From Actinomycetospora lemnae (lineage in GTDB: Bacteria; Actinomycetota; Actinomycetes; Mycobacteriales; Pseudonocardiaceae): a DNA stretch of 64,000 bases. The notes below the pieces were generated by a model. That model was not told the DNA's origin, made no database searches, and saw only the letters and a program-made list of their open reading frames with translations. Of the stretch, positions 12,944-25,444 are shown in pieces. The position numbers were made by a program, and so were the translations under genes. The DNA is taken from contig NZ_JAQZAO010000005.1 in NCBI RefSeq assembly GCF_028737315.1, positions 62,001 to 126,000 on the forward strand. Reading direction: 5' to 3'. The number at the start of each line of letters is the position of its first letter. The stretch's first letter is position 1.

Positions 12944-15900
12944 TCAGGTCATTGAGCGCGCGGGGTTGCCGCCCCACCGCTCGCCGTCGGGGACGTCCTC
13001 GCCCTTCATCAGGAAGGTGTCAGGAGCCAGGACGACACCGTCGCCGATCGTGGTGCCGTAGTGCACGAAGGAGTTGACCCCGAGGGTCACCCGGGCCCCG
13101 AGCACCACGACGTCGGACTTGAAGGCGCCGTCTTCCTGCGAGTGGCTCTGGATCACCGAGTTCTCACCGAGGGTGCACTCGTCGCCGATGGTGGTGAAGC
13201 CGCGCTCGATGATGGCCGCGCCGTCGTCGAACACCCGCTTGCCGATTCGCACGCCGAGGAGGCGCCAGACCCAAGACTTGAAGGGGGTGCCGTCGAAGGC
13301 CCGCATCCAGGTCGGGGAGGGGACCTTCCAGTAGCGCTCGTGACGCCAGAACGCACGGTCGTAGATCGAGCACCCGTCGGGAGCCAGGGTCTTGAGGCCT
13401 GCCGTAGCCCTCTCGACCAGCACGAACCACATGACGGTGAGGACGAGGATCAGCACCTCGGCGAGCACCACCTCCAGGGGACCCAGACGCACAGGCAGGG
13501 ACGCGATGGCGGCCACGGCGATGAGCACCAAGGAGCCGTACAGCCACCGGACGAGCAGGTGCAGCGCGGCCGTCGTGGTGTTGTGGCGGTTCTTCTGTGC
13601 CATCGACCGGGCGAGGTCCGCTGGGTCGTCGGCCTCGAGGGCGCTGTCGCGCGCCACGGTGCGGGGTATCTCGAAGCTCGGGGACCCGAGCAGGCCGACC
13701 CCGGTTCGGACCTGGCCGTCGACCGGCACGGCCACCTTGGTGGCGAGGAGACAGTCGTCCCCGGTGCGCCCCTGCGGTGGATAGGCGATGTTGTTGCCCA
13801 GGAAGTTGCGGGCCCCGATGGTGGTGGCCGAGACCCGAAACGAGGTGGGGGAGTACTCGGCGTTCATGACCGACAACCCGTCGGCGACCACCGTGTCGCG
13901 CCCGACCACGGTCAGGAACGGGTTCTCGTGCTTGACCGACATCCCGAAGTTGGAGCCGGTCTGGGTGAACGGCCGCAATCGGTAGCCGACGGCCGTCAGG
14001 TAGTAGGGGATCGCGGAGCTGTCGCCGAACAGCTCGACGAAGCCCTTGACGTTGGTCAGCCCGGCGATGCTGCGCTGCTGCCAATAGCGCAGGCCGTAGA
14101 GCGGATAGATGCGGTCCGGTCGCAGCCCGAGGGACAGCAGCCGCGGCAGCGTGGTGACCGTCACCAGACCGACCAGCAGGCCGCCGACGAAGAGGACGCT
14201 GCTGACGGCGAGGACCTCCACCCAGTACAGCCAGGTGGCGAGGGCCCCGACCGGGGGCTCGAACAGGGCCTCGACCTGGGGAGCGGCCGCATGGACCAGG
14301 GCGAGGACGGCGATCGCTGTCGGCACGGCGACGAGCAGCACGAAAATGGCGGTGGCCATCGGGTAGAGGAAGCGGCGCAACCGGCCACACGGGACCGGAG
14401 GGACGGTCGGAACGGTCATCGTCGCGCGGCGCCCCGGCGAGCCGTGCCACGTCTCGCCCCGGGGGACCGACTGGCCGGGGTGGAGCGACGAGCTGTGGCT
14501 CAGCACGGACCCGTCGTCCATCGAGGTCTGGACGTCGAGCACCGTCTGTTCCCCGATGACGACGTCCTCGCCCAGGGAGACGCCACCGATCTCGATCTGC
14601 CCGTCGTGCGCGCGGTAGCAGGAAATCGACGCGTCCTTGCGGACGAGGGTGCCCCGCCCGACCGAGAAGAGGTCGGTGGCCACGGGGACCTGACGGGTCA
14701 GCAGCACGACCCCCGGGCCGATCCTCGCTCCGAGCGCCCTGAGATAGAGGCTGTAGGCCGGGGTGCCGGTGAACATCACCATCGGGTTCGCGCGGATCAG
14801 GACCTTGACGATCCAGAAGCGCAGGTACGCCGGGCTCCAGACCCGGATCGAGGTCGGCCTCCATCGCCCGACCAGCACCCACTTGAGGAGCACGGGGAGC
14901 GCGACGAGGCCGGCAATCCCGAGGGCCGCGATACCCACGGCGCGCAGGTAGAGGTCGACGAGTCCGGTCGCCGTCGTGGCCCAGCCGTAGGCCCAGGTCA
15001 GGTAGATCGCGACGAGATAGGTGTAGGCCAGGAAGAACAGGAGCTGCGCCGCGCCGCACAGGACCATGGCCAGGGTGCCGGCACGGGGCCCGGCCGACGC
15101 GGGCGTGGGAGGTGCGACGGTCGGGCCGGGCTCGGCCGGGCCTCCCGCCGGGGCGAGGAATGCGGCGAGACTCGCCAGGGTGGTGTGGGCGTACACGTCG
15201 GGCATGGCGACGGCCGGCAGGCCGGGGGCCTTGCGCACCTTGGCGCAGAAGCGGGCCATGAGCAGCGAGTCGGCGCCGAGGTCGTCGAAGAAGTGCGCGC
15301 TGGGCGGGATGGTGTCCCGCTCCAAGACCTCGCGCAGGATCGTCTCGAGCCGCGCCGCGATGTCCGCACTTGCAGCGTCCCCGGACGGCGAGGGAGCCAG
15401 CGCCGTCGCCAAGGCCGTAAGCGTCGGGTGCTGGTAGACGTCCTGCATCGCCACCGACGGCAGCTGCGGGTGCTTGCGCACCTTGGCGCAGAACCGGGCC
15501 ATCAGCAGCGAGTCGGCGCCGAGGTCGTCGAAGAAATGCGCGCCCGGCGGGACGGTGTCGCGCTCCAGGACCTCGCGCAGGACGTCGGCGAGCGCGGCCT
15601 CGACGACGCCGGCGTCCGGGGGCGCCGCTGACGGGGCGCCCGCCGCCACGGGGAACGGCGCCGACCGCGCAGCCTCTGTTGGTGGTGAGAGGGCCCCGCC
15701 GCGAGGTGGCGCGCTCAGGCGTTCGATGCGTGATGGCCCCGAAGGCGCGGAGGGGCGCCGGGGCGTGTGCGAAGTGCCCGGCGAGGAGGTTCGCGGTCCG
15801 GCGCCGGGAGCAGGGAGTTCACCGGGTGGCCCGCGAAAGACGACCGTGCGACTGGACCGACGCACCGGCCGAGGCCGCGGTGGCCGGGCGCTCGCGGGAT

Positions 15901-17269
15901 GATCGCGGACGCCTCGGCCCCCGGTCCGGTCGAGTCGGGCGATCCGTTCGACTTCCCCCTCGGGGGTGATCCGTCCGAGATCGCCGGTGCGGAAGATGCG
16001 TTCCGGTGGGGCGTCGCCGAGGAAGGCCTGGCGGGTCAGGTCCGCGCGGCCGACATAGCCGCGAGCCACGCCCACGCCGCTGATGCCGATCTCGCCGACC
16101 TCACCTGGTGGCAGGACGCACGTCGGGTTGCGGAGGTCCAGGACGACTGCACCGTAGGTGGGCAGGGGGCGCCCCAACGTCGGTGCTTGGTCCGGGCGCG
16201 GCTCGCTCCACAGGGCGGCGACGGTCGTCTCCGGCGGCCCGTGCAGACCGATGAGCCGCCGCCCCGGACGTCCCCAGGAGTCCAGGAGCTGCGCAGGTCG
16301 CTCCACGCCGCTGAGCAGGACCAGCCGCAGGCGAGGGAGCTCGACGTCAATGTCGGCCAGGAGCGCTGGGTCCGCGCGGAGCACGGTGACTCCCCGGTCA
16401 CGCAGGAAGCGGCCGAGGGTGGGCCCCCGGAGGCCCTCACCCGCCGGCGGTGTGATGACGGTGGCGCCACGGGACCACGCCAGCCACGTCTCGAGCACCC
16501 CGAGGTCGGAGCCCGGGCGCGGGTCGTGGAAGACGCGGTCGCCCACGCCGATGTCGATGAGGTCGCCGACGACCTGGACGAGGTTGGTCACCGCCTGGTG
16601 GCTGATCGCGGGCACGCGTAGCCCGCCGCCCGCGCCGTCGGCGTGGACGAGGATGTAGGCGGGCGACTCGTGGGGCGAGGTCCTCCAGGCGTGGGGGAGG
16701 CGACGGACATCTTCCTCGTCAACGCGCGGAGCGACCCGGTCGAGATAGACCGCGTCGACGTCAGAGGCGTCGAGCCGTGGCGCCGCAGCGGCGTGTGCGA
16801 TCACGAAACTGGCGCCCGACGCGTCGAGCACGGCAGCAAGACTCTCGTTCGACAGGCCGGGCGCGACCGGCACCCAGACGGCATCGAGCTTGGCGATCGC
16901 GACCTGGGCGACGAGTGCGTCGAGCGGGCGCTCGAGGAGGACCGCGATCCGGTCGCCCGGCCCGACCTTGCGGCCGTGCAGAAAGCGCGCCAGGCGGTTC
17001 GCCGACATATCGAGGTCGTCGTAGGTGAGCGACCCCTCTGCCGCCTCGAGGGCGCGACACCCCGCGCGACCAAACCGGCGGAACTGGTCGCAGCGGCGCT
17101 CCATCATCCACACGAGCCGCTCATCCGGCGACGTGCGCGGTTTGTGCGCACCGAAGTCGTCGCCGCGCGCCGCGTTGAGAGGGCCTGCGGGGCGGGGGGC
17201 CGCCATCGTGGTGCGCACGAGATGGGCGGTGCGTTTGGCCCCGTGGCCTGCGTGATCGGACCCGGGCAT
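12944..17269 (-). CDS. Pls/PosA-like protein: degenerate adenylation domain, two carrier domains, TM segments and left-handed beta-helix domains
   Basis: 1441 aa. Residues about 50-450 are an AMP-binding fold (LTYDDLDMSANRLARFL, FRTGDLGRITPEGE), but the nucleotide P-loop (normally TSGSTGxPKG) reads VHADGAGGGLRVP. The C-terminal subdomain with the catalytic lysine is replaced by a Pro/Arg-rich stretch (450-550). Two almost identical acyl carrier domains follow, each with DDLGADSLL; the attachment serines are Ser587 and Ser668. Several membrane helices alternate with hexapeptide (left-handed beta-helix) acyltransferase-like repeats to the end (VVLGARVTLGVNSFVHYGT). The architecture resembles the Pls/PosA family (poly-lysine synthetase relatives). 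With a crippled A domain it may be loaded in trans or act as a scaffold or transferase. Confidence 0.8.
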   Translation of the reverse strand: MPGSDHAGHGAKRTAHLVRTTMAAPRPAGPLNAARGDDFGAHKPRTSPDERLVWMMERRCDQFRRFGRAGCRALEAAEGSLTYDDLDMSANRLARFLHGRKVGPGDRIAVLLERPLDALVAQVAIAKLDAVWVPVAPGLSNESLAAVLDASGASFVIAHAAAAPRLDASDVDAVYLDRVAPRVDEEDVRRLPHAWRTSPHESPAYILVHADGAGGGLRVPAISHQAVTNLVQVVGDLIDIGVGDRVFHDPRPGSDLGVLETWLAWSRGATVITPPAGEGLRGPTLGRFLRDRGVTVLRADPALLADIDVELPRLRLVLLSGVERPAQLLDSWGRPGRRLIGLHGPPETTVAALWSEPRPDQAPTLGRPLPTYGAVVLDLRNPTCVLPPGEVGEIGISGVGVARGYVGRADLTRQAFLGDAPPERIFRTGDLGRITPEGEVERIARLDRTGGRGVRDHPASARPPRPRPVRRSSRTVVFRGPPGELPAPGAGPRTSSPGTSHTPRRPSAPSGPSRIERLSAPPRGGALSPPTEAARSAPFPVAAGAPSAAPPDAGVVEAALADVLREVLERDTVPPGAHFFDDLGADSLLMARFCAKVRKHPQLPSVAMQDVYQHPTLTALATALAPSPSGDAASADIAARLETILREVLERDTIPPSAHFFDDLGADSLLMARFCAKVRKAPGLPAVAMPDVYAHTTLASLAAFLAPAGGPAEPGPTVAPPTPASAGPRAGTLAMVLCGAAQLLFFLAYTYLVAIYLTWAYGWATTATGLVDLYLRAVGIAALGIAGLVALPVLLKWVLVGRWRPTSIRVWSPAYLRFWIVKVLIRANPMVMFTGTPAYSLYLRALGARIGPGVVLLTRQVPVATDLFSVGRGTLVRKDASISCYRAHDGQIEIGGVSLGEDVVIGEQTVLDVQTSMDDGSVLSHSSSLHPGQSVPRGETWHGSPGRRATMTVPTVPPVPCGRLRRFLYPMATAIFVLLVAVPTAIAVLALVHAAAPQVEALFEPPVGALATWLYWVEVLAVSSVLFVGGLLVGLVTVTTLPRLLSLGLRPDRIYPLYGLRYWQQRSIAGLTNVKGFVELFGDSSAIPYYLTAVGYRLRPFTQTGSNFGMSVKHENPFLTVVGRDTVVADGLSVMNAEYSPTSFRVSATTIGARNFLGNNIAYPPQGRTGDDCLLATKVAVPVDGQVRTGVGLLGSPSFEIPRTVARDSALEADDPADLARSMAQKNRHNTTTAALHLLVRWLYGSLVLIAVAAIASLPVRLGPLEVVLAEVLILVLTVMWFVLVERATAGLKTLAPDGCSIYDRAFWRHERYWKVPSPTWMRAFDGTPFKSWVWRLLGVRIGKRVFDDGAAIIERGFTTIGDECTLGENSVIQSHSQEDGAFKSDVVVLGARVTLGVNSFVHYGTTIGDGVVLAPDTFLMKGEDVPDGERWGGNPARSMT

Positions 17270-19576: not shown

Positions 19577-19903
19577 ATGATCAGCCGCCGGGACCTGCAG
19601 CGCCGAGCCGAGCGCGAGGTACAGGCCAGCGACATGGAGGCGGCGGCTGAAGTCGTCCGCGTGCGCGGCCCCGGCGGATATGCAGGCCTCGACGAGCCGT
19701 CGGCGGCGGCAGTTTCCGAGCTGCTCGTGGAGATCGCGTCAGGCTGGCGGGAGAAGCCGACTGCGCCCCGAGTCTGGGAGGCAGCCACGCGCGTCGCAGA
19801 TCGAACCCTCGCCGGCGACCACGACCCGGCACCGAAGTTCCCGGGACCTGCCCCCGCGGGCTACACGAACCCCCACCTCAAGAAGGGCTTCCCGGTCGGC
19901 TGA
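19577..19903 (+). CDS. Conserved-looking small hypothetical protein
   Basis: 108 aa from ATG 19577 with a strong GGAGGAG 5 nt upstream. It is highly charged at the N-terminus (MISRRDLQRRAEREVQAS), predicted helical to about residue 60, with a Pro-rich tail ending FPGPAPAGYTNPHLKKGFPVG. No membrane segment, signal peptide or recognised domain. Divergent from the LigC gene, so possibly co-regulated with DNA repair (inference). Confidence 0.6.
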   Translation: MISRRDLQRRAEREVQASDMEAAAEVVRVRGPGGYAGLDEPSAAAVSELLVEIASGWREKPTAPRVWEAATRVADRTLAGDHDPAPKFPGPAPAGYTNPHLKKGFPVG

Positions 19904-19983
19904 GCCGCAGGCATCTCGGCGGCTGCCCACGGTTGCCGAAACTTCGGGGGCGGGCTCAGACAAGCGAAACCGCCGCTCGCGCC

Positions 19984-20221
19984 GACGTTGCGCGCCGAAC
20001 GGGTGCGGACCGCCTGCGCCTGCCTCTGGCGACGCGCCCACTGGCCTCTCCGGGAGCTCCTCAAGGCCGGGCGGCCGGGCGACTTCGGCGCCGAGGTGGA
20101 CGCCGCTGCGCGGCGACGGCGCTGGAGGGCCCCGGGAGCTTGATCGGGCCGTTCCTCCCGGTCAAGGGCGCTACGCGTCGCTGCGCGACCAGCCTCCGGC
20201 TGGCCCTTGACCGCGAGCCTC
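19984..20221. ncRNA. Structured non-coding element, copy A
   Basis: Shares ordered blocks with copy B (24001-24253): GACGTTGC (19984), CTCAAGGCCG (20060), hairpin GCCGC-tgc-GCGGC (20102-20114), GGGCCC (20127), AGCTTGATC (20137), a long-range stem GGTCAAGGGC/GCCCTTGACC (20160-20169 with 20203-20212) and GAGCCTC (20215). The 12-nt, 14-nt and 2-nt spacers after the hairpin, after AGCTTGATC and after the stem are identical in both copies. The stem differs in sequence but stays paired. No open frame explains it. Family and strand are unknown; it could be a repeated RNA or a transposable non-coding element. Confidence 0.65.
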
Positions 20222-20470
20222 ATGGGGCAGGCCGACCCGAGTTCGACAGGCTCGGCGGCGGTAGCCGCCGCTCGGTGATCACTCCGCGAGCCTGGAGCCC
20301 CGACTCCTGCGTCGAGAACGTGACCCGGGCGGTGGTCGGGAGGACGTGGACCGCTGAAGGGATGGCGTGCCCGACACCAAAGTGCGGTGGCGGGAGCACT
20401 CGACCATGAGGCCGCCGGCAGTCCTTCCGCCGCTACTGGACCGGATGACCGAGCGAGGGGAGCGGGCAGG
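20222..20470 (+). other. Non-coding segment before the IS110 transposase, possible bridge-RNA region
   Basis: About 250 nt without a gene. In many IS110-family elements the long non-coding end upstream of the transposase encodes a structured guide (bridge) RNA, so this is the likely place for one. Inverted GC-rich motifs are present (GGCGGCGGTAGCCGCCG near 20253), but the loops and ends of the element could not be identified. Confidence 0.35.
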
Positions 20471-21928
20471 GTGTTGTTTGTCGGTGACGACTGGGCTGAG
20501 GACCACCATGACGTGGAGGTGCAGGACTCCACCGGGCGGCGATTGGCGCGGGCCCGGCTGCCCGAGGGGCTGGCCGGGGTCGCGCGATTGCACGAGCTCA
20601 TCGTCACCGCGCTGCCCGAGCACGACGACGCCGAGAGCGGTGAGCTCGGCGATCCGGGTCGGGTGTGGGTCGGGATCGAGACCGATCGGGGTGCGTGGGT
20701 GCAGGCCCTGGTCGCCGCCGGGTATCGGGTGTTCCCGATCAACCCGCGGCAGGTGGCCCGATACCGGGAGCGGCACGGCAACGCCGGCGGGAAGAGCGAC
20801 GTCGGTGATGCGCATGCGCTGGCGGACATGCTGCGCACCGACGGCCACCAGCTGCGCGCGATCTCCGGGGACAGCCCGCTCGCGGCCGGGGTGAAGGTCA
20901 TGGCTCGGGCGCACCAGACCCTGATCTGGGAACGCGCCCGTCACGCGCTACGGCTACGTGCCGGGCTGCGCGAGTACTTCCCGGCCGCGCTGGAGGCCTT
21001 CGAGGACCTCGCCGCCACCGACGCACTCGAGCTGCTGGGCAAGGCCCCGGACCCGGACAGCGCCGCGCGGCTGACCCACCCCCAGATCGAGGCGGCATTG
21101 CGTCACGCGCACCGCCACGGCGTCAAGGACAAGGCCGTCGCCCTGCAGACGGCGCTGAGGGCGCCGGGCCTCACCCAGCCGGCTGCGGTGGCGGCCGCGT
21201 TTGCCGCGGTCACCCGCGCGCTGGTCGGGGTCATCGCCGCGGTGAACACCCAGATTGCCGCGCTTGAGCGCAGCTTGCGCGAAGCGTTCGACACCCACCC
21301 CGAGGCGGAGATCTACCGCAGCCAACCCGGGCTCGGACCAGTGCTGGCGATGCGGGCGCTGGCCGAGTTCGGCGACGACCCCAAGCGCTACTCGGACGCC
21401 CGCGCCCGCAAGAACTACGCCGCGACCAGCCCGATCACCCGCCAGTCGGGCAAGAAGAAGACCGTGGCGGCCCGGTTCGTGCACAACGACCGGCTCGTCG
21501 ACGCGGTGGCCCGCCAGGCCCAGGGCGCACTGGTTGCCTCGCCCGGCGCGCGGCGCTACTACGACGAGCTCCGCGGCCGCGGCGTCGGCCACTTCGCGGC
21601 CCTACGTCAGCTCGGCAACCGGCTCGTCGGGATCCTGCACGGCTGCCTCAAGGCCGGCGCCCGCTACGACGAACAGCTCGCTTGGGGCCATCGATATCCG
21701 CGGTGGCGGCCTGAAGCGAACGCGCTGCTGAGGCGACCGCGCTCGGTCGGCTCACCGATCCTCGTGCTCGTGCGCCACGTCAGGCGTTCTGTCCGGAGCT
21801 TGTGGGCTATCCATGGACGTGGCGCGAGGAGCGGCCCCGAACTCGCGGGTGGCCGCCCAGCTGGCCAGGAGCGCGAACTTGTCTGCCGACGGGGAGCCTT
21901 CTTCGGCGCTGTAGGTGCACATGGCTAG
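20471..21928 (+). CDS. IS110-family transposase with a frameshifted C-terminus
   Basis: Start GTG 20471. N-terminal DEDD RuvC-like domain (VLFVGDDWAEDHHDVEV, VWVGIETDRG, GGKSDVGDAHALAD) and C-terminal Transposase_20 domain with the serine-containing region around QPGLGPVLAMRALAEFGDD and NYAATSPITRQSGKKK. IS110 enzymes use both in guide-RNA-directed insertion. After DEQLAWGHR (near 21695) the reading leaves the expected ending; the neighbouring frame gives a short SAVAA tail and stops at 21712-21714, so a one-base shift has added about 70 foreign residues that overlap the next gene. The protein may be inactive at its extreme end only; the catalytic regions look intact. Confidence 0.85.
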   Translation: MLFVGDDWAEDHHDVEVQDSTGRRLARARLPEGLAGVARLHELIVTALPEHDDAESGELGDPGRVWVGIETDRGAWVQALVAAGYRVFPINPRQVARYRERHGNAGGKSDVGDAHALADMLRTDGHQLRAISGDSPLAAGVKVMARAHQTLIWERARHALRLRAGLREYFPAALEAFEDLAATDALELLGKAPDPDSAARLTHPQIEAALRHAHRHGVKDKAVALQTALRAPGLTQPAAVAAAFAAVTRALVGVIAAVNTQIAALERSLREAFDTHPEAEIYRSQPGLGPVLAMRALAEFGDDPKRYSDARARKNYAATSPITRQSGKKKTVAARFVHNDRLVDAVARQAQGALVASPGARRYYDELRGRGVGHFAALRQLGNRLVGILHGCLKAGARYDEQLAWGHRYPRWRPEANALLRRPRSVGSPILVLVRHVRRSVRSLWAIHGRGARSGPELAGGRPAGQERELVCRRGAFFGAVGAHG

Positions 21929-22684
21929 CCCGGGCTCGCCGGGGAGTTCGAACATGTCGAAGGTGACCTCGATGTCGCCGACCTGCGGGTGGCGGTAGAC
22001 CTTCTGTCCGGTGCGGTGCTCGTGCACGTCGGCTTGGGCCCAGTCGGCGCGGAACTGTGCGCTGAGGGTGGAGAGCTCGCCGATGAGGGCGGTGAGGTCT
22101 TGGTTGAGCGGGTCGCGTCCGGCGGCGAGGCGCAGCATGCCGGCGTTCATGCTGCGGGCCAGGGGCCAGTCGCCGTAGTAGTCGCGGGCGCGGGGGTCGA
22201 GGAAGATGAAGCGGGCCAGGTTGGGTCGGTCAGCTTCGAAGTGGGGGGCGAACAACGCGCGTCCCATCAGGTTCGAGGCGACGAGGTCCTGCTGGGTGTT
22301 GACCACGACCGCGGGTACCGCGGTGTTGTCCAGGACCCGCTGCACGGAGGCTCGAACTGTCGAGGGGCTGGACGGGCCGCGGCTCTCAGACGCCGGGGTC
22401 GGGGCGGCGGCGCGAGCGAGGTCGAACAGGTGCTCGCGTTCGACGTCGTCGAGTTGCAGCGCGCGGGCGATCGCGTGGAGGACGCTGTCGGAGGCGCCGC
22501 GGAGGTGGCCGCGCTCGAGCTGGATGTAGTAGTCCGGGCTGAGACCGGCGAGCTGGGCGACCTCTTCGCGGCGCAGTCCCGGGACGCGCCGTTCGCCTCC
22601 GTATTCGGGCAGGCCCGCCTGTGCGGGGGTGATGTGCGCGCGGCGCGAGATGAGGAACTCCCGCACCTCGTCCTTCCTGCTCAT
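21752..22684 (-). CDS. MmyB-type helix-turn-helix regulator
   Basis: 310 aa from ATG 22684. An N-terminal XRE HTH (RRVPGLRREEVAQLAGLSPDYYIQLERG) is followed by the MmyB-like ligand-binding domain of PAS-like fold (VPAVVVNTQQDLVASNLMGRALF, NLARFIFLDPRARDYYGDW, HPQVGDIEVTFDMFELPGEPG). In actinobacteria such regulators usually sit beside oxidoreductases and control them; here the gene follows an alcohol dehydrogenase on the same strand. A second regulator of the same family lies at 45 kb. The C-terminal tail overlaps the read-through end of the transposase. Confidence 0.9.
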   Translation of the reverse strand: MSRKDEVREFLISRRAHITPAQAGLPEYGGERRVPGLRREEVAQLAGLSPDYYIQLERGHLRGASDSVLHAIARALQLDDVEREHLFDLARAAAPTPASESRGPSSPSTVRASVQRVLDNTAVPAVVVNTQQDLVASNLMGRALFAPHFEADRPNLARFIFLDPRARDYYGDWPLARSMNAGMLRLAAGRDPLNQDLTALIGELSTLSAQFRADWAQADVHEHRTGQKVYRHPQVGDIEVTFDMFELPGEPGLAMCTYSAEEGSPSADKFALLASWAATREFGAAPRATSMDSPQAPDRTPDVAHEHEDR

Positions 22685-22766
22685 GGTGTCCACCGTAGGT
22701 CGGTGCACGCGGCCCGGTGGCGCTCCGGGACGTGAGGAGGGGCGCCGCCCGGGCCGGTGCGCGTCG

Positions 22767-23789
22767 TCAGAGGGTCAGCAGCACCTTGACCGCGCGTCGC
22801 TCGTCCATGGCCTGGTAGCCCTCGGGGGCCTGGTCGAGGGGCAGGGTCAGGTCGAACACCTTGCCGGGGTCGATCTTCTGGTCCCAGACGAGCTGGATGA
22901 GCTCGGGCAGGAACCGGCGGACCGGGGCGGGGCCGCCGTGGGTGTGGATGCCGGCGAAGAACAGGTCGATGCCGGGGATCGACACGTCGTAGTTGACCCC
23001 GACGAAGCCCATGTGCCCGCCGGGGCGGGTGATGTTGATGGCCTGCATCGTCGACTCCTGGGTGCCGACGGCCTCGATGACGCTGTGCGCCCCGAGACCC
23101 TGGGTCAGGTCCTTGATCCGTGCGACGCCCTCGTCGCCGCGCTCGGCGACGATGTCGGTGGCGCCGTAGAACCGCGCGAGCTCCTGGCGCTCGGGGTGAC
23201 GCGACATGGCGATGATCCGCTGCGCGCCGAGCTGGCGGGCGGCGAGGACGGCCATCAGCCCGACGGCGCCGTCGCCGACGACGGCGACGGTCTTGCCGGG
23301 GCCGGCCTCGGCCGCGACCGCGCCGAACCATCCGGTGCCCAGCACATCGGAGGTGGCCAGCAGCGACGGGACGAGCTCCGAGCTCGGCTGCCCCGGGGTG
23401 GCGACCAGGGTGCCGTCGGCGTGCGGGATGCGGGCCAGCTCGGACTGGGTGCCGATGGTTTGTGCGACGAACTCGCCGTGCACGCACTTGGACTGGTAGC
23501 CGGCGCGGCAGATCTCGCAGGTGTTGTCGGAGATGACGAAGGACCCGACGACGAAGTCGCCGACCTTCACGGTCTTGACCTCGGCGCCGATCTCCTCGAC
23601 GACGCCGACGTACTCGTGCCCCATGACCTGGTGGTCGGCCGGCTCGACGCCCCGGTAGGGCCACAGGTCTGACCCGCAGATGCAGGTCGCGGTGAGCCGG
23701 ATGATCGCGTCGGTCGGCTCGATGATCTTCGGGTCGTCGCGCTCCTCCACGCGCACGTCGCCGGCGGTGTGCATCACAACTCCACGCAC
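22767..23789 (-). CDS. Zinc-dependent alcohol dehydrogenase
   Basis: 340 aa medium-chain dehydrogenase. The catalytic zinc site is CICGSDLWPY with Cys, the GHEYVGVVEEIG motif with His-Glu, and the NAD-binding loop VAVVGDGAVGLMAVLAA. The structural zinc region has only part of the usual four-cysteine set (TCEICRAGYQSKC, three Cys). Most similar in layout to glutathione-independent formaldehyde or threonine dehydrogenase-like enzymes. Upstream of the MmyB regulator on the same strand, 82 nt apart, so probably one regulatory unit. Substrate unknown. Confidence 0.85.
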   Translation of the reverse strand: MRGVVMHTAGDVRVEERDDPKIIEPTDAIIRLTATCICGSDLWPYRGVEPADHQVMGHEYVGVVEEIGAEVKTVKVGDFVVGSFVISDNTCEICRAGYQSKCVHGEFVAQTIGTQSELARIPHADGTLVATPGQPSSELVPSLLATSDVLGTGWFGAVAAEAGPGKTVAVVGDGAVGLMAVLAARQLGAQRIIAMSRHPERQELARFYGATDIVAERGDEGVARIKDLTQGLGAHSVIEAVGTQESTMQAINITRPGGHMGFVGVNYDVSIPGIDLFFAGIHTHGGPAPVRRFLPELIQLVWDQKIDPGKVFDLTLPLDQAPEGYQAMDERRAVKVLLTL

Positions 23790-24000
23790 GAAGAATCGCT
23801 CCCTTGCTCCGCACCGGCCCCACAGGTGCCGGCACTCGCTCCACGGCGAAGGCGCGTGCTCGCGTCCTTCCTCAACTCATGGAACCCGCGGCGAATCGGT
23901 ACTGGCAGGGGCCGCTAGCACCCCCCAAGACACCCGCGTAGTGCCGGTCGAGGCCTCGGACTCACAGCGTCGAGGGCGGGCCCGCCGAGTCCCTCGTCCC

Positions 24001-24253
24001 GACGTTGCCCGGCCGGCCGCCGGGAGGTCGTCGCCAGGCAGCTCAAGGCCGCGCGGCCGAGACCCCGTTCGAGCCGCCTTCGGCGGCGCTGTCCTCACTG
24101 GGCCCGGCAGCTTGATCCGCCCGCCCCTCACCAGCAAGGGCCGCAGAACATCTTCGGGCCGCGCCCTCTCGACGGCCCTGCGGGCCGGCTGCTCCCAAGC
24201 GTCGAACGCGGCCCGAGAGATCTTCTGCTCTTCGACCCTTGCTGATGAGCCTC
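24001..24253. ncRNA. Structured non-coding element, copy B
   Basis: Blocks in the same order as copy A: GACGTTGC (24001), CTCAAGGCCG (24042), hairpin GCCGCC-ttc-GGCGGC (24073-24087), GGGCCC (24100), AGCTTGATC (24109), stem CAGCAAGGG/CCCTTGCTG (24132-24140 with 24236-24244) and GAGCCTC (24247). The stem replaces GTC/GAC of copy A by AGC/GCT, keeping base pairing. Its variable loop is 95 nt against 33 in copy A. It lies in the 700-nt gap between the alcohol dehydrogenase and the sigma factor. It may be an independent RNA or part of the sigma factor leader. Confidence 0.65.
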
Positions 24254-24492
24254 TGCGGGCGGACGCGGCGCCACCCGGGGTGGAGGCACAGAACGCCTCC
24301 ACCGCCAGGGACGCCGGGCCCGCTTCACGCGACTCGGTCTCGGGGTCCATCGGAGTCGGCGACTTGACCGCACGAGGCCCAGGGATGTCTCGACGGCCCG
24401 CTCGGCGCCCTTCGGGCGGTGGAGGCAGCAAGCGCCTCCGCCCACCGCCCCGGGGCCCTCCAGCCCCGACCCGTTCCCGGTCGGAGGCCACC
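24254..24492. other. Hairpin-rich leader before the ECF sigma gene
   Basis: Two similar hairpins stand out: GTGGAGGC-acagaac-GCCTCCAC (near 24280-24302) and GGAGGC-agcaagc-GCCTCC (24421-24439). Both share the GGAGGC/GCCTCC arms. No gene is seen here. The segment could be a continuation of element B or a structured 5' leader of the sigma factor transcript. Confidence 0.45.
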
Positions 24493-25098
24493 ATGACCAC
24501 CCAGCCCACCCAGGACCTGCGCACCGACGCCGAGCTGCTCGCGGGCTACGTTGCCGGAGACAGCAGCGCGCTCGCCGAGTTGGTTCACCGCTACCAGGGG
24601 GTGCTCCTGACCCTCGTTCGTCGCATGTCGTGGTTCGAGCCGGACCCCGAGGCCGTCGTGCAGGAGGTCTGGCTGCGCGTGCTCAGGAGCGCGGCCACGT
24701 ACTCGGGGCAGGCGAAGGTGTCGACCTGGCTACATCGGATCACCGTGAACGAGGCCATCAGCGCCGCTCGACGGCGCCGCGCCGATCACTCGACGCCGAT
24801 CGGGGAGCTGTACCGGGAACACGACCAGTCCGATCGGACCGACCCGGGCGATCCTTCGCAGGCGGTGGACGACCGCGAGCAGGCACTCGCGTTGCTCCCC
24901 GAGCTCTTGGCCCTCCTGACCCGTGACCAGCGCCTGGTACTCGAAGTTCTCCACCTCGACGGATTGACCCAGGAGGAGGCCGCCGAGCTGCTCGGGGTCT
25001 CCGTCGGCACGATCAAGTCACGCGCTCACCGCGCCCGCGTGACAATCCTGGCCCACCTCGCGAAGGAAGATCGCCGAGAGACTTGCGCCAACCTTTGA
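24493..25098 (+). CDS. ECF (extracytoplasmic-function) RNA polymerase sigma factor
   Basis: 201 aa from ATG 24493, with GGAGG 7 nt upstream. Sigma-2 region: DAELLAGYVAGDSSALAELV, then EAVVQEVWLRVLRSAATYSG and STWLHRITVNEAI. Sigma-4 HTH: LTRDQRLVLEVLHLDGLTQE, GVSVGTIKSRAHRARV. It resembles the SigM/SigR-type ECF group. A typical zinc-binding anti-sigma factor is not encoded downstream; the next gene is a small unknown. A very strong hairpin follows the stop codon. Confidence 0.9.
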   Translation: MTTQPTQDLRTDAELLAGYVAGDSSALAELVHRYQGVLLTLVRRMSWFEPDPEAVVQEVWLRVLRSAATYSGQAKVSTWLHRITVNEAISAARRRRADHSTPIGELYREHDQSDRTDPGDPSQAVDDREQALALLPELLALLTRDQRLVLEVLHLDGLTQEEAAELLGVSVGTIKSRAHRARVTILAHLAKEDRRETCANL

Positions 25099-25168: not shown

Positions 25169-25444
25169 ATGGCAACCCACAACACCAGCTCCCGGCCGCT
25201 TGACGACCTCGAGGTCGACACCACCGCCACCCCTCGAGATGCGGTCGCCCAACTGTTCGCCGCCGCTCTCGACGGCGATCGACGCGCCGAGGCCACACTG
25301 CACCTGCTTGGCGGATTCGACGAGACGGCTCAACGCGCGTCGGCTGCCCTCCTCGACTCCGGCAGCGACCCGAGACATGGCACCGTCGATGTTCTCGCGA
25401 GCATCGACCGCACCCTCGCCGCGCTTCGCGATGAGCGCCGCTGA
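25169..25444 (+). CDS. Small hypothetical protein after the sigma factor
   Basis: 91 aa from ATG 25169. Predicted mostly helical (AVAQLFAAALDGDRRAEATL, DVLASIDRTLAALRDER). No Cys/His pair, membrane helix or signal peptide, so it is not a standard zinc anti-sigma factor. It starts 23 nt past the strong hairpin. Function unknown; partnership with the sigma factor is possible only from position. Confidence 0.5.
   Translation: MATHNTSSRPLDDLEVDTTATPRDAVAQLFAAALDGDRRAEATLHLLGGFDETAQRASAALLDSGSDPRHGTVDVLASIDRTLAALRDERR

Follow-up and report, generated by a model that had tools for sequence, protein, structure and literature searches.

A conserved structured non-coding element of Actinomycetospora genomes and actinobacterial plasmids: a candidate single-stranded DNA signal

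Introduction

Single-stranded DNA (ssDNA) promoters of F-type plasmids, viz. Frpo or ssi, were reportedly described by Masai and Arai in 1997. Early gene expression and second-strand synthesis in the conjugative elements of actinobacteria have, to our knowledge, been little studied. Single-stranded promoters of F-type plasmids are also the subject of PMC11541004, which places Frpo upstream of ssb and states that SSB stimulates their transcription, and whose main text contains no word starting with "Actino"; an integrative and conjugative element (ICE) known to carry an sso is ICEBs1, with sso1 (PMC4595007). The present work concerns a non-coding element found in two copies in a stretch of 64,000 nucleotides from Actinomycetospora lemnae (contig NZ_JAQZAO010000005.1, positions 62,001 to 126,000, referred to here as the window, in whose numbering positions are given). 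The element is a conserved structured non-coding family with covarying helices, and the reading that we favour, to which we give about an even chance, is that it serves as an ssDNA signal (a promoter or priming site similar to Frpo or sso) of actinobacterial conjugative elements and plasmids. Among the titles and abstract openings listed by searches of the open-licence literature, none pointed to the element.

Results

The two copies were recognised in an earlier sequence-only reading of the window, and the blocks that it described as shared between them, as well as a stem with base changes compensated on both sides, were found at the positions it gave. In copy 1 this stem is formed by GGTCAAGGGC (20160-20169) and GCCCTTGACC (20203-20212) and in copy 2 by CAGCAAGGG and CCCTTGCTG, with CTC/GAG flanking both. 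One of the proposed blocks, GACGTTGC, is present in 2 of the 19 copies checked, viz. only the two in the window, and it is therefore not part of the element family. A strict core pattern matched 6 places in the genome of A. lemnae (6.06 Mb), compared to 0 for a reversed control, and 8 places in 84,980 species genomes, every one of them in Actinomycetospora. When up to three mismatches were allowed, 11 of 150 genomes of the taxonomic family matched, but the 9 outside the genus all did so at three mismatches, and there the reversed control matches at least as often. A first covariance model, built from nine type A copies and used with a cut-off of E<=0.1, gave 65 matches in 15 of 18 genus genomes, inclusive of all 15 that are at least 90% complete, although some of the 65 are neighbouring fragments or marginal; copies of the element exist genome-wide. 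With a second model made from 36 matches (E<=0.001, ten candidates scored per genome), matches turned up in the taxonomic family at large, in 52 of 297 genomes and 15 of 46 genera, and 34 of the matches outside the genus were read. Comparison with Rfam identified no known family over the copies: none of the 4227 families matched in the window at the gathering score, and a relaxed search of 19900-24500 gave two weak matches, neither overlapping a copy.

The copies share helices and not a reading frame, so that the earlier claim that this is not a coding repeat holds. In 35 distinct copies the structure consisting of helices P1-P6 is paired in 93.0% of cells, and changes on both sides are seen in 26 of 46 pairs, compared to 14.3±1.8 in shuffles (0 of 500 reaching the observed number) and 3-7 in slid controls. 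The covariation score is 0.226, against 0.093 for shuffles and at most 0.046 for slid controls; the counts lean towards the structure, as the alignment was fitted to most of it. P1, which pairs across the whole element (88.6% paired, 6 of 9 pairs double-changed), replaced a local GGCCC/GGGCC hairpin (74.7% paired, 2 of 5 pairs double-changed), and the structure with this hairpin scores 0.182 instead of 0.226. The nine A-type sequences taken by themselves give no covariation signal (3 pairs, shuffles 2.8). An outer helix, P0, ends ahead of the ribosome-binding site when read by eye. Covarying helices of this kind are equally expected of folded DNA and of a structured RNA leader, and they therefore lend support also to the main rival of our reading, according to which the plus strand is transcribed and folds as a shared 5' leader RNA that controls translation or termination across a mobile-element regulon, an explanation that we consider rather unlikely.

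The evidence on which strand folds comes mainly from the hairpin loops. Counting hairpins with a three-base loop and a stem of at least 5 pairs, unless stated otherwise, the plus strand of 119 distinct copies (body plus 100 nt upstream) contains TNC and GNA loops in a ratio of 179 : 3, in addition to 93 other loops, and all 179 TNC triloops are closed by C-G. The corresponding ratio is 1 : 2 in the 80 nt downstream of the copies and 17 : 15 in control DNA (window and other loci), whereas for stems of four it is 97 : 0 in 52 copies and 136 : 1 in a further 63. Due to this ratio of 179 : 3 on the plus-strand reading, it is the complementary strand that bears C-GNA-G triloops, and such triloops are exceptionally stable in single-stranded DNA. 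The middle base takes all four letters (TGC 60, TTC 51, TCC 20, TAC 8), as the GNA rule demands of the other strand. By alignment column in the 35 copies, TNC loops number 31 in P3 and 21 in P4. The complementary strand is also the more stable one in 30 of 35 copies with DNA parameters and in 26 of 35 with RNA parameters, and on the revised structure GT occupies 26 cells versus 41 for AC, i.e. the plus strand has no G.U preference. Wobble asymmetry was dropped as a strand test because it is weak (on the first structure GT 28 vs AC 40, or 28 vs 32 without four poorly aligned pairs). The loop ratio, the GT and AC cells and the lower stability of the plus-strand RNA in 26 of 35 copies all speak against a leader RNA. 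The sequence-only reading had regarded the element as a conserved RNA; of this claim, the conserved structured non-coding family stands, but as for the folding molecule, the loop bias, the lack of a plus-strand G.U preference and the plasmid and ICE setting favour ssDNA of the complementary strand over RNA.

A further explanation, viz. that an RNA of the complementary strand (an antisense or divergent small RNA) bears the GNA triloops, accounts for the same loop bias and for the greater stability of that strand; however, the wobble excess there is small (41 vs 26), on plasmids some sites precede genes and others follow them (hand count), and no promoter was found with TTGA-N15-20-TANNNT, the sole pattern sought. 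We regard this explanation as quite improbable.

The genomic setting in Actinomycetospora is that of conjugative elements, as the ssDNA signal reading would have it. Both window copies and a copy at C26:34989 (the window being C26:62001-126000 of the same genome) share one island, whose genes include those for a tyrosine integrase, an excisionase-like HTH_17 protein, ssb, WhiB, a TraG-type protein and a TrwC relaxase. Genome G042, which is a single contig, has three copies in an element of about 22 kb that also encodes a TrwC relaxase and an integrase. TrwC gave 25 matches in 12 of the 18 genus genomes; of the 65 genus matches, 36 have a TrwC no more than 80 kb away, and every one of these is oriented as the TrwC is. 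At 18 of 19 relaxase loci a copy is located upstream, the nearest at 1.3-11.7 kb, the exception being G154:C27, where the sole copy is downstream of the relaxase. An ssb-like gene starts 43-73 nt past 13 copies (one ssb was tested against Pfam; in L087 the open reading frame (ORF) is short), and we infer that the ssb-linked copies lie in the leading region. Other genes downstream, as judged by eye, encode WhiB, sigma factors of three kinds and others, the sigma factor of the window having been tested against Pfam; one downstream ORF beginning MTDTE.. recalls a primase, but no Pfam family matched it. The leader RNA explanation draws on the same setting, since genus copies stand about 40-100 nt before the start codons of varied genes (two ssb types, WhiB, sigma factors and others, by eye); moreover, the ribosome-binding region of L050 contains GCGCTTGGAG, with which a CTCCAAGCGC segment can pair, and in L052 such a pairing is possible with nine letters of it.

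Relatives of the element are also present on plasmids. Searches by blastn with seven queries gave 10, 9, 5, 6, 35, 42 and 27 records with plasmid relatives, sets that overlap and, at the looser cut-offs, may include chance matches. The records include plasmids of Cutibacterium, Micromonospora, Glutamicibacter, Rothia, Curtobacterium, Kocuria, Nocardia and Streptomyces, and matches were also seen to plasmids of Acidiphilium and Sinorhizobium. The single query run against phage records gave no match. For the plasmid pIJ101, which carries an sso, the best match to model R2 (E 7.1) is not convincing. Five plasmids (L204, L212, L213, L214, L221) show a relaxase, mobC, one or two small ORFs on the opposite strand and then the element, and in two Micromonospora-type plasmids (L205, L222) it lies between mobC, or its neighbour, and a small ORF. 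A copy is located 5' of the annotated ArdC gene (ardC) on the Kocuria plasmid pCE7, and another 5' of an annotated DNA primase/polymerase on pBCI1-1. Where a plasmid has a rolling-circle-type rep (L208, L211, L218), the coding strand of rep is in all three cases the one with the GNA loops; two of these reps match Rep_1, and the third matches Rep_trans with a score short of the curated cut-off. A leader RNA does not sit well with the plasmid sites, as 12 of 25 are not ahead of a same-strand gene (hand count).

Eight genomes were searched again at E<=0.01 and gave 4 to 40 matches each. In G006 (L184-L186, L196, L201) inverted pairs of matches face inward at about 1.45-1.6 kb from one another; a DUF222-HNH ORF (by Pfam in L184) lies between the paired matches of L184 and of L185, with one copy preceding the ORF start. 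Inverted pairs 0.5-0.6 kb apart are present in G259 (L187-L191, L202), and those of L187 and L189 enclose a further palindromic sequence. An alternative is that the element is an insertion hot spot or a dispersed mobile repeat, similar to a miniature inverted-repeat transposable element, with folded ends to which a recombinase or an HNH nuclease binds. The pairs of G006 and G259 speak for this, as does an insertion bearing an IS110 gene behind CCTC in two copies of the A. lemnae genome. However, in the genus every match near a relaxase is on the relaxase strand and the copies stand before genes, and we hold a mobile repeat to be very improbable.

Within the window, the extent that the sequence-only reading gave to the copies proved too short; they extend to about 24458 and 24321, with the outer closing helix read by eye. 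Copy 1 is of type A and occupies 20060-20221 on the plus strand, its remaining half being displaced to 24392-24458. It begins with a 5' hairpin, CTCAAGGCC-GGGC-GGCC (20060-20076), the start motif of which, CTCANGGCC, is present in 17 of 19 copies checked. The 5' strand of P0, GGGCCCCGGG (20127-20136), as read from the sequence, now has its partner at 24449-24458, and equivalent helices are seen by eye in L074, L104 and L109. The 5' strand of P1, CGGGCCG (20145-20151), which is supported by covariation, pairs with 24394-24400. The long stem P2, CTC..GGTCAAGGGC/GCCCTTGACC..GAG (20155-20217), carries the arms P3 (loop TGC) and P4 (loop TCC), and after it comes CCTC of an internal loop (20218-20221), directly behind which the insertion starts. 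The 3' half (24392-24458, plus strand) contains the 3' strand of P1 (24394-24400), P5, P6 and the 3' strand of P0 (24449-24458); it is a partial covariance-model match and aligns to L034, a relative that lacks the insertion, right behind GAGCCTC, which is also the point after which the cut in the window falls. Copy 2, of type B, is a complete divergent member at 24042-24321 on the plus strand, with P0 GGGCCCGGC/GCCGGGCCC, P1 CCGCCCG/CGGGCGG, P2 CTCACCAGCAAGG/CCTTGCTGATGAG (one mismatch) and long arms. The minus strand of copy 2, as single-stranded DNA, has a fold z of -5.76, and the interrupted copy 1 by itself one of -1.54.

The insertion in copy 1 (20222-24388; 4.17 kb) has CTC on both sides and contains an IS110-family transposase ORF (20387-21928, plus strand; PF01548 1.3e-28, PF02371 3.8e-09), two cargo genes on the minus strand, viz. 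for an MmyB-like regulator (21752-22708; PF17765 5e-47) and a zinc-binding dehydrogenase (22767-23789; PF00107, PF08240), and copy 2. Behind the displaced half lie an extracytoplasmic function (ECF) sigma factor gene (24493-25098, plus strand; PF08281, PF04542), downstream of the element, and a 91-aa ORF (25169-25444, plus strand), for which no Pfam family matched and which by tblastn stands behind the sigma gene in relatives. At four loci (L009, an A. chibensis record, L010, L013 and L014) an uninterrupted type A element lies directly 5' of an ECF sigma gene and a small ORF. Copy 1 had been taken to stand upstream of the IS110 gene, but the sigma gene is what follows the uninterrupted copies, and the IS110 gene belongs to the insertion; copy 1 is thus a leader of the sigma-factor gene, not of the IS110 gene, and an insertion bearing the latter has cut it in two. 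The link to IS110 is secondary, as the insertion with the insertion sequence (IS) sits inside copy 1. Contig C30 of the same genome (L032) has an identical layout with other cargo. An integron-like cassette array, which the differing cargo had brought to mind, was dropped because the intact relatives have a single leader instead of an array. The IS110 genes at window 20222 and at C30 ~121500 are 93% identical over 406 aa, and both insertions start after CCTC; two insertions beginning at this same point suggest that the IS targets the element. Upstream of type B copies in L031 (7980-9404) and L012 (286-1482) there is a different ORF, IS110-like by eye, and TTGA|TCAAGGGC marks the junction of these copies with an A-type hairpin.

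As for the remainder of the window, GC climbs from 0.67-0.72 to 0.73-0.77 between about 28000 and 36000, which is likely the right end of the island. ARAGORN found no tRNA in the window, although a tRNA 3' fragment had been suspected from typical false ORFs. A 1441-aa ORF at 12944-17269 resembles by eye an adenylation/carrier protein of the non-ribosomal peptide synthetase type.

Discussion

The loops suggest that the element acts when transfer or copying leaves one strand of the DNA without its partner. If our favoured reading is correct, the strand complementary to the plus reading would become single-stranded, either as the transferred strand in the recipient or as the strand displaced in rolling-circle replication, and it would then form a fold of several arms whose triloops are of the C-GNA-G kind. 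The RNA polymerase or primase of the host may recognise this fold and make an RNA, which could be an early transcript of the downstream gene and/or a primer for the second strand. It is possible, although we put it forward only tentatively and at somewhat below even, that these are pan-actinobacterial ssDNA promoters or priming sites, recognised by way of their C-GNA-G triloops and set in a single orientation on conjugative elements, that start ssb, WhiB, sigma factor and antirestriction genes before second-strand synthesis. The family would make the question of early gene expression and second-strand synthesis in entering actinobacterial conjugative elements testable, and, being findable with a covariance model, it would mark candidate early-gene regions in actinobacterial ICEs and plasmids.

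Several observations weigh against this reading. The pattern TTGA-N15-20-TANNNT (-35/-10) occurs on either strand in 0 of 36 copies, bearing in mind that actinobacterial or ECF promoters may differ. The loop bias is not seen in every arm, P5 having only 6 TNC loops and 4 GAA in the 35 copies; the GNA loops would equally suit an RNA of the complementary strand; and because the copies share descent, the loop and stability counts are not independent trials. The co-orientation of 36/36 with TrwC is a raw count, without control for the orientation of other genes of the element, some of these 36 are neighbouring fragments of one site, and for 29 of the 65 genus matches, some of them on short contigs, no TrwC lies within 80 kb. 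On the plasmids, a same-strand gene starts within 350 nt at only 13 of 25 sites (22 plasmid loci, a hand count on incomplete gene tables in which L227 and L228 were not counted). Further, when the transferred strand is inferred via an inverted repeat and the nic motif behind it, it carries TNC loops on four MOBP plasmids (L204, L212-L214) but GNA loops on two Rothia plasmids (L209, L210), and in this respect it is therefore inconsistent. Lastly, matches are scattered in G259 (40), G006 (23) and G008 (18), and none of four scattered copies with downstream DNA (L140, L151-L153) has a downstream ORF by script. Due to the lack of a -35/-10 pair, the inconsistent MOBP strand and the scattered copies in other genera, our confidence in the ssDNA signal is held at an even level.

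In comparison with known systems, the element is like the bridge RNA of IS110, which is encoded inside the IS at its end, in that an IS110 gene adjoins copy 1; however, intact copies are present without IS110 in L009, L010, L013 and L014, and the bridge RNA, a comparison that the sequence-only reading had proposed, is therefore disfavoured. Its mode of action may be analogous to that of Frpo/ssi and of sso, and membership in those families is not claimed. Unlike Frpo/ssi, with which it is compared by description, the element has a GC-rich multi-arm fold with triloops, no -35/-10 pair that was found, and actinobacterial hosts; like them, it stands directly before ssb and other conjugative-element genes, in one orientation where a relaxase is near. 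With sso it shares that it consists of stem-loops on plasmids and ICE-like elements and that its strand fits the rep coding strand in 3 of 3 cases, whereas it differs from sso in occurring in several copies per mobile element, often linked to genes.

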